A DNA stretch of 46,698 bases from Synergistaceae bacterium. GTDB taxonomy: Bacteria; Synergistota; Synergistia; Synergistales; Aminobacteriaceae. The notes under the pieces were generated by a model. The model ran no database searches. It was not told the origin of the DNA and saw nothing but the letters and a program-made list of their open reading frames with translations. A program made the position numbers and the translations under genes. Shown in pieces: positions 14,476 through 16,233 of this stretch; positions within the stretch are counted from its first letter, which is position 1; every line of letters starts with the position of its first letter. The stretch spans positions 1 to 46,698 of the forward strand of contig JAISUL010000105.1 of NCBI GenBank assembly GCA_031272145.1. Reading direction: 5' to 3'.

Positions 14476-15186
14476 TTGGACGATGACTGGACGCCGCACC
14501 TGGAGGAGCTCAGGCGGCGGATCATAGTGGTCTTGATCGCGTTCTTCGCAGCGGCGGTGGCGGCGTTTTTCTTCTCGCCCCAAATAGCGGCGTTCCTGAC
14601 CGAGCCCTTGGCCGGGGTGCGGCTCTACACGTTCGCTCCGGCGGAGAAGTTCATGGCCTACCTGAGGCTGTCGGCCTGGACTGGAGTAGTGTTCGCCGCG
14701 CCGGTCTTCTGCGCCGAGACCGCGGTATTTTTGTGGCCCGGCCTAAAAGATCGGGAGTTCATGTTCGTTTCGGCGGCGCTGTTCGTCGTGCCGTCGCTGT
14801 TCCTGCTGGGCGCCGCCCTGTGCTGGCGCTTCCTTGCGCCGGTGGTCTTCCGTTTCTTCATGTCCTTCGGGGAGGGCGACAATATAGGCGCCATGTGGGG
14901 CTTCGACTCGTACCTCTCGCTGCTGTTCGGCCTGATGCTGGCGGCGGGCCTGCTGCTCCAGGCGCCGCTGCTCCTCCTGGCCCTGCTGCTGACCGGCGCA
15001 GTCTCGCACAACAGCGTCGCGCGCCTGCGCCCTCACATAGTGCTGGCGATATTCCTCCTAGCCGCCCTGCTGACCCCGCCGGACGTCATCTCGCAGGTGA
15101 TGCTCGGCGTTCCGTTATATTTGCTGTTCGAGGCGGCGCTGTTCATAGGAGGGCTCTTGCGTAAAGCCAACAAAGGCGACCCCTAG
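14476..15186 (+). CDS. tatC: Sec-independent protein translocase TatC
   Basis: Signal-recognising core of the Tat translocase. The 236-residue, six-helix protein shows the TatC N-terminus DWTPHLEELRRRIIVVLIAF, the FAPAEKFMAYLRLS region and the conserved ALLTPPDVISQVMLGVPLYLLFE. The start is TTG immediately after the tatA stop. Its TAG stop shares a CTAG with the stop of the convergent glycosyltransferase gene. No tatB is present, so this would be a TatAC system. Confidence 0.95.
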   Translation: MDDDWTPHLEELRRRIIVVLIAFFAAAVAAFFFSPQIAAFLTEPLAGVRLYTFAPAEKFMAYLRLSAWTGVVFAAPVFCAETAVFLWPGLKDREFMFVSAALFVVPSLFLLGAALCWRFLAPVVFRFFMSFGEGDNIGAMWGFDSYLSLLFGLMLAAGLLLQAPLLLLALLLTGAVSHNSVARLRPHIVLAIFLLAALLTPPDVISQVMLGVPLYLLFEAALFIGGLLRKANKGDP

Positions 15187-16233
15187 TCCCACTTACGACG
15201 CCACCACTCCTTGACCGCCGCCCACAGCAGCCGCACCTTGCCCAGCCCAAGGTACACGTCGAGGTACACGGCGGGACGGCCGAGGAGGGACTTCACGCAC
15301 TCCGAGGCGTGGTAGGTCGAGAGCGACCGGCAGCGGTGGAACAGGAGCGCGATATTCCGAAGCGATCCGCCCCACTCCGTTTGCATGAGTACGTTTAGGA
15401 AGATGTCGGTGCTGAATGCGTCGTCGGGGCAGGACAAAAGTTTCGGCCCTCCGGAGCAATAGTGCAAAATGGCGTTTTCGGCCTCGGCCTCCGATTGAAC
15501 TGCCATTGCAACGCGATCGAAGCGCTCGTCTATAAACAGAACGTCGTTCTTGAAAGCAGCGTTGAGGAAGTCCTGATCGGCAAGGTCTGCTATGCTGCCG
15601 TAGAGGTTGTAAAACCTGAAAGCTTCTGCTAAGAAATCGCCCCGTGCGCGGATGCGATCCAGATTCATAACGAGCACGCCAGAGTTAAAGTAGCTGTCGC
15701 CATTGTACCCGAACACCCAGCGCCTGATTCTCTCTCGGAAGCTCTCAGGTGGAGTGCCGCGAACCGCGGCGATTGAATAAACCGTAGAAAAGCTCTCTCT
15801 CTCTCTCTCTCTCTCTCTCTCTCTCTCTCTCTCTCTCTCTCTCTAAGGATATGTTCCACAGATCCGCTATGTCCAGGTTGACCACGATGTCACAATCGAG
15901 ATATATAATTTTCGGGACGTTCATTACGTCGGGAAGCACTAGACGAAAGAGTGTTCCTTGGGTGAAAACTTTTCCGGCCTTGGTAGGGTTCTTCGCGACG
16001 CGGCTGATATGCCTGGACACGTCTATGAAGCTCACTGACTGCCCGAAGCGCTCCGCGGTGTGCTCGAAGCGGCGGCGGTTGTCCTGGGTTAGGGTGGTGT
16101 CGTGCAGAATCGTCACGTTCACCCGGCTCCTGGTGTTGGAGAACATCGAGGTCATAACCACGCCCGCATAAGCGGAGTAGTACCCTGAAGGATCGTAGAC
16201 GGCCAGAACAACCTGAATCACATCGGAGGTCAT
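15183..16233 (-). CDS. Family 8 glycosyltransferase, phase-variable, frame-shifted (OFF) by a (CT)26 tract
   Basis: GT8 retaining glycosyltransferase, probably for lipopolysaccharide or capsule sugars. The N-terminal part (MTSDVIQVVLAVYDPSGYYS, VTILHDTTLTQDN) runs to the metal-binding IIYLDCDIVVNLDIADLW (DxD). It then enters 26 AG units, coding Glu-Arg repeats, and ends after 162 residues at 15745. In the frame one base over, the rest of the family fold resumes: FSTVYSIAAVRGTPPESF, YFNSGVLVMNLD, DQDFLNAAF and ILHYCSGGPKL. The tract must hold a multiple of three units for the frames to join. 27 units would give a 350-residue protein and 24 would give 348; 26 leaves it OFF. ATG start behind GGAAG, 16 bases after the coiled-coil gene. 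A sequencing error in the tract is the main alternative. Confidence 0.85.
15793..15844. repeat. (CT)26 / (AG)26 dinucleotide tract inside the glycosyltransferase gene
   Basis: 52 bases of uninterrupted CT on the plus strand (AG in the coding direction). In any frame it encodes alternating Glu and Arg. Slipped-strand mispairing of such tracts gives reversible frameshifts. It lies between the DxD strand and the FNSG motif of the GT8 fold, where a surface loop is expected. Confidence 0.95.

Follow-up and report, generated by a model that had tools for sequence, protein, structure and literature searches.

The GT8 glycosyltransferase gene located at positions 15183 to 16233 (minus strand) of the window, the whole 46,698-nt stretch analyzed here, is very probably an SSR contingency locus, and the same AG device appears, from sequence, to operate in approximately 30 assignable genes of the genome. 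The sequence-only reading of this gene as phase variable gained support from several directions: the two halves of the gene, which homology connects, are both intact, pN is lower than pS after the tract, dozens of like tracts lie in putative surface-glycan genes with frame states that appear to be random, and other genera have tracts at the same positions.

The gene begins with an ATG at 16233, 5' of which the sequence contains an AAGGAAG-like ribosome-binding site, and ends with a stop at 15183. Its N-terminal half (15847 to 16233, minus strand) is the nucleotide-binding part with the DxD motif (YLDCD) and supplies 129 amino acids before the tract; its C-terminal half (15186 to 15791, minus strand) supplies 202 amino acids in another frame, includes the motifs YFNSG and DQDFLN, and has no lesion. 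Using TRF, a perfect 52-bp tract coding for (Glu-Arg)n was identified between them at 15793 to 15844, read as CT on the plus strand (AG on the minus strand) with 26.0 copies and a 100% match. Pfam matches to PF01501 were obtained for both the N-terminal half (1.2e-18, profile positions 8 to 121) and the C-terminal half (5.4e-12, profile positions 152 to 244), and with PF01501 over the domain and both the DxD and FN(S/A)G motifs present, the product has the features of the GT8 family. The frame from the ATG passes through the tract and ends at a stop at 15745, giving a truncated product of 162 amino acids in the assembly, with an out-of-frame tail at 15745 to 15792 (minus strand); the second frame is open from 15791 to the stop at 15183. 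The initial placement of two GT8 halves in different frames around 26 AG units therefore held.

The arithmetic proposed with it was also right: as 52 bp is out of frame, 26 units correspond to OFF, whereas the gene would be ON with 24 units (48 bp) or 27 units (54 bp), numbers divisible by three. This is a draft assembly in which the unit number may be off by one, so "OFF" describes the gene as assembled and need not hold for the cells. The repeat is pure, has a unit that is not a multiple of three, and exceeds chance expectation, and a change in its length alone would join or separate otherwise intact parts. The tract reads Arg-Glu whatever the frame, as had been claimed, and 24 or 27 units give 16 or 18 residues, matching the insert of 16 to 18 residues predicted for the ON protein. 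Alignment likewise agreed with the suggested position of the insert, placing the tract 3' of the YLDCD strand, in the turn LWNIS-[tract]-..AAV, and ahead of YFNSG. Tract-free homologues have merely a short turn between the end of the LW-x-x strand and the AAV strand, and the GT8 paralogue at L161:11807 has its own AG tract in the same place. The N-terminal half shares 63% identity with the L161 paralogue and 55% with L074, and the nearest GT8 relatives are from Synergistaceae or Synergistales metagenome-assembled genomes (deer, rumen), at approximately 46 to 55% identity; on the basis of the named relatives, the genome was assigned to the family Synergistaceae. The convergent neighbor is tatC (14476 to 15186, plus strand; PF00902, 3.2e-51), with an overlap of 4 bp at the GT8 stop. 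On the other side, the GT8 gene directly follows the gene of a coiled-coil repeat protein (16250 to 17089, minus strand), with 33-bp (11-residue) tandem repeats at 16394 to 16729 of the window; FecCD permease and ABC genes lie upstream of it.

The tract had been considered unusual, and this part of the sequence-only reading needed revision, as the tract is not a lone one. Using AG runs of at least 6 units as the criterion across the whole 2.05-Mb genome (107 contigs), 43 AG tracts of 15 to 62 bp were identified, with a mean of 19 units; a first-order Markov model predicts 0.3 AG runs of at least 12 nt per genome, or 0.7 when the CT orientation is included. The stretches around the tracts were scored for coding potential and frames and then searched against Pfam and NCBIfam. 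By our own classification, 23 of the 43 tracts are internal, with coding sequence of the gene on both sides (the window tract, L153, L155, L156:6876, L160, both in L161, L167, L168:147, L170, L171, L173, L174, L176, L177, L178:2460, L179, L180, L181, L182:2683, L183:1256, L184:7066, and L185). Seven are of the start type, lying no more than 25 codons from the start (L154, L156:2093, L156:3371, L158, L166, L168:893, and L172), six are at 3' ends (L157, L159, L162, L165, L175, and L184:5043), and the remaining seven are intergenic, decayed, or unclear (L163, L164, L169, L178:272, L182:403, L182:1588, and L183:24). All loci in which the tract is carried by a clear gene have AG on the coding strand, giving (Arg-Glu)n; since CT would encode (Leu-Ser)n, this bias may reflect selection on the translated product. 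L163 is the one clear intergenic exception, with CT on the gene strand approximately 36 bp upstream of a gene labeled DUF4422-like by similarity to L170.

The glycosyltransferases among the tract gene products comprise GT8 (n = 5), GT2 (n = 2), GT4, and one GT56-like enzyme. FkbM methyltransferases were identified at L155, L168, L171, L176, L182, L185, and L167, Methyltransf_24 genes at L165 (by Pfam) and L157 (by similarity), and another SAM methyltransferase at L184:7066; the other products are DUF4422, DUF268 (n = 2), MBOAT, radical SAM, an Asn-synthase-like protein, an acyl carrier protein, and HsdS. Assuming 1,900 genes, the presence of a tract in five of the seven GT8 genes has a hypergeometric probability of 5e-8, and that of a tract adjoining 7 of the 13 FkbM domain matches, one of which is a decayed copy, a probability of 1e-9. 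Across the whole genome, none of the 43 tracts was inside a recognizable housekeeping gene. For the tract genes at L153, L154, L156:2093, L160, and L168:893, no family was found in Pfam or NCBIfam.

The assignable genes are those with internal or start-type tracts, and 7 of these 30 are in frame (L155, L156:2093, L160, L161:5037, L167, L173, and L184:7066), compared with the 10 predicted by random slippage [P(≤7) = 0.17]; the automatic frame call was revised by eye for L158, L168:893, L176, L177, and L183:1256. The 23 out-of-frame genes, most of which retain both parts, could speak for neutral growth of microsatellites, in which tracts simply break genes that are dispensable or were newly acquired, are under weak selection, and are on course to disappear. 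Further damage in two places points the same way. At L164 (5068 to 5111), an FkbM C-terminal half that is 95% identical over 244 bp to L171 is preceded by (AG)7 and then (AGAT)8, with stops in all frames, and the gene fragment at L178:272 is also damaged. L164 is apparently a dead contingency locus, and its decay indicates that some tract loci do die. Elsewhere, however, the homologous halves remain open and show no second lesion, and the orientation locked to AG on the coding strand also tells against neutral growth. So does pN below pS beyond the tract, a comparison made with paralogue pairs only, several of which are saturated and say little: after the tract, the GT8 gene of the window and the L161 paralogue differ by a dN of 0.46 and a dS of 1.48 (dN/dS of approximately 0.31), and the OFF genes L171 and L182 by a dN of 0.19 and a dS of 0.40. 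As the test rests on paralogues, some of this constraint may predate the tracts. Neutral growth also fits poorly with an intact MutS (850 amino acids), with the scarcity of other repeat types (genome-wide there are four exact G10 runs, and the surroundings of the tracts contain few non-AG repeats), and with the recurrence of the same tract positions in other genera, and overall we consider it improbable. Loss of mismatch repair was not supported, MutS being present and AG dominating the repeat types. A G13 homopolymer was noted at L176:7515, near a tract-bearing FkbM locus.

Among duplicated copies, tract length moves faster than the flanks. L182:403 and L182:1588 share 123 bp of downstream sequence at 99% identity and have tracts of 34 and 27 bp. 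A conserved upstream module, CCGGAC..AACGCGCTCCAAAATTTCTAGCTAGG..ATG-AG, is common to six tracts (L156:2093, L156:3371, L166:689, L172:5077, L178:272, and L182:403), with approximately 35 to 88 bp aligned and 87 to 97% pairwise identity, and is followed by tracts of 28 to 45 bp. It contains a TATAGT-like box, a CTAGCTAG palindrome, a ribosome-binding site, and an ATG with its G forming the first base of the AG tract, and it stands before unrelated genes (GT8, GT2, and others); this promoter-ATG-(AG)n module looks like a reused start cassette. A scan of IMG/VR with its sequence gave no match. At L182:403-1740, two AG tracts flank an opposite-strand open reading frame (586 to 1542), and this pair could possibly be the duplicated edges of a rearranged cassette. 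The first 6 nt after the 43 tracts are strongly T/C rich across unrelated genes (T accounts for 61% of nt 1 to 3 and 47% of nt 4 to 6) and often read CTTTCT, CTTTTC, or ATTTTC. A T/C-rich junction was not evident after the tracts of the relatives G003, G004, and G022.

GA runs of at least 12 units were found in only 5 of 83 genomes of the family, with the genome carrying the GT8 gene having by far the most. In G004 and G022, which belong to one genus, and in G003, from another, the tracts are again in FkbM and GT2 genes. Three tract sites are common across genera: the FkbM C-terminal part before the TTIDD/ADSID strand, the FkbM N-terminal part after GGSW, and, in GT2, between the D(D/N)xSTD motif and the N-x-NLG strand. 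An assembly artifact was rejected because paralogues and other genera have tracts at homologous positions. The contig scan for GT8 relatives returned no record of the same species, and the length differences seen are those between paralogues and across genera. The single AG tract of G041 was set aside because, unlike the others, it is embedded in irregular purine-rich sequence.

The in-frame GT8 paralogue at L161:4447-5553, with its tract after NSGVLLMN, was modeled using 17 relatives (mean pLDDT of 81 and pTM of 0.82). The repeat region of the model is largely helical, with a mean pLDDT of approximately 78, and the top Foldseek match was LgtC (1g9r), with a TM score of 0.77 on the target. The insert site in this paralogue differs from that of the gene in the window, so the model predicts only that a GT8 fold can accommodate an Arg-Glu insert. 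The inserts lie within catalytic domains, at turns or the ends of helices, and recur at the same sites, which would suit a role in which the (Arg-Glu)n insert modulates activity or partner choice in three-unit steps, besides ON/OFF switching. We judge such length tuning unlikely, given that a full protein is possible only at every third length. Ribosomal slippage on the AGA/GAG run, yielding some full-length enzyme at any tract length, is highly improbable even though AGA, which occurs eight to nine times in the tract, accounts for 5% of Arg codons in the sampled genes, the lowest share of any; a fixed slippery site would have no need of long tracts that differ so widely in length, and the AG tract of the Mycoplasma mycoides mod gene works by its length (PMC3498834).

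The tract of one further gene points beyond glycans. At L181 (G000:C97:3400-9505), (AG)15 at 5010 to 5039 lies out of frame between the two target recognition domains of a type I HsdS, with Pfam Methylase_S domains both before and after it. The open reading frame directly upstream is an intact HsdM, giving the strongest N6_Mtase match of the genome (2.2e-114), and the remaining five such matches are weak. An SSR thus interrupts hsdS directly after an intact hsdM, making this locus a candidate phasevarion.

Under the contingency locus reading, slipped-strand mispairing during replication would add or remove AG units. Unit numbers divisible by three would yield the full GT8 enzyme with (Arg-Glu)8-9 inserted into a surface turn, and other numbers the 162-amino-acid GT8 fragment lacking the catalytic C-terminal half. 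With AG on the coding strand, the same device would act mostly on glycosyltransferases, FkbM and other methyltransferases, an O-acyltransferase, and radical SAM enzymes, and likewise on the HsdS whose neighbor is the only clear type I HsdM found. Judged by the protein families, the products would act on glycans at the cell surface, and independent random switching could give rise to cells with a wide variety of surface glycan combinations, and possibly of DNA methylation combinations as well. Probably, then, the cell flips surface sugars and one DNA methylation enzyme randomly on and off. A bolder proposal, which we put forward tentatively and regard as rather doubtful, is that one repeat type has served a gut-type anaerobe lineage to build a large combinatorial switchboard at recurring tolerant sites in catalytic domains, with the (Arg-Glu)n insert selected and structured in the ON enzyme, and with the pyrimidine-rich junction and start module suggesting seeding or shuffling by a specific process.

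An anaerobe of a little-studied family thus appears to switch approximately 30 mostly glycan-modifying enzymes with one dinucleotide, mostly from within catalytic domains, and a DNA methylation specificity subunit appears to be among them. Automated annotation of such genomes can mislead, because most tract genes would be called two fragments or pseudogenes. Strain-level metagenome reads could be used directly to watch glycan switching. In the open-access literature, to which the search was confined, no title or abstract describing phase variation in Synergistetes was found.

Repeat-mediated phase variation is best known in pathogens, and the well-studied cases are mostly G tracts or tetranucleotides. 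LgtC of Neisseria and Haemophilus is a phase-variable GT8 lipopolysaccharide (LPS) glycosyltransferase, with a G tract in the former and a tetranucleotide repeat in the latter; here, in contrast, the repeat is AG and lies within the catalytic domain. Phase-variable RfaJ-type LPS glycosyltransferases are also found in H. pylori (RfaJ homologues HP0208 and jhp0820) (PMC1599737). RfaJ/GT8-type surface-glycan transferases switched by repeat length have precedents in both these homologues and LgtC. In Campylobacter phasomes, SSR loci are numerous and affect transferases, SAM methyltransferases, and radical SAM enzymes, with a strand bias (PMC6321876), and the gene classes resemble those identified here. 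Those repeats, however, are 91% poly-G/C, with only 44 dinucleotide repeats across all genomes surveyed (PMC6321876), whereas a single AG repeat type dominates here. For NgoAV hsdS of N. gonorrhoeae, an in-gene SSR decides whether the type I HsdS is truncated or full length, as described in PMC7394358; the SSR is a G tract there, compared with the (AG)15 between two target recognition domains at L181. The AG repeat type has a precedent, established experimentally, in the mmyCI mod gene of M. mycoides, where an AG tract inside the coding region, from nt 320, acts through its length, with (AG)12 OFF and (AG)10 ON, two units apart; an AG tract is also common to other mycoplasma mod genes (PMC3498834). 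That system involves a type III DNA methyltransferase at one locus of a mollicute with 10 to 12 units (PMC3498834), unlike the tens of mostly glycan-type genes with about 10 to 31 units found here. Mid-gene AG switching is not new; the present case differs in the scale on which a single dinucleotide is used, in the mid-domain placement of the tracts, and in the lineage.
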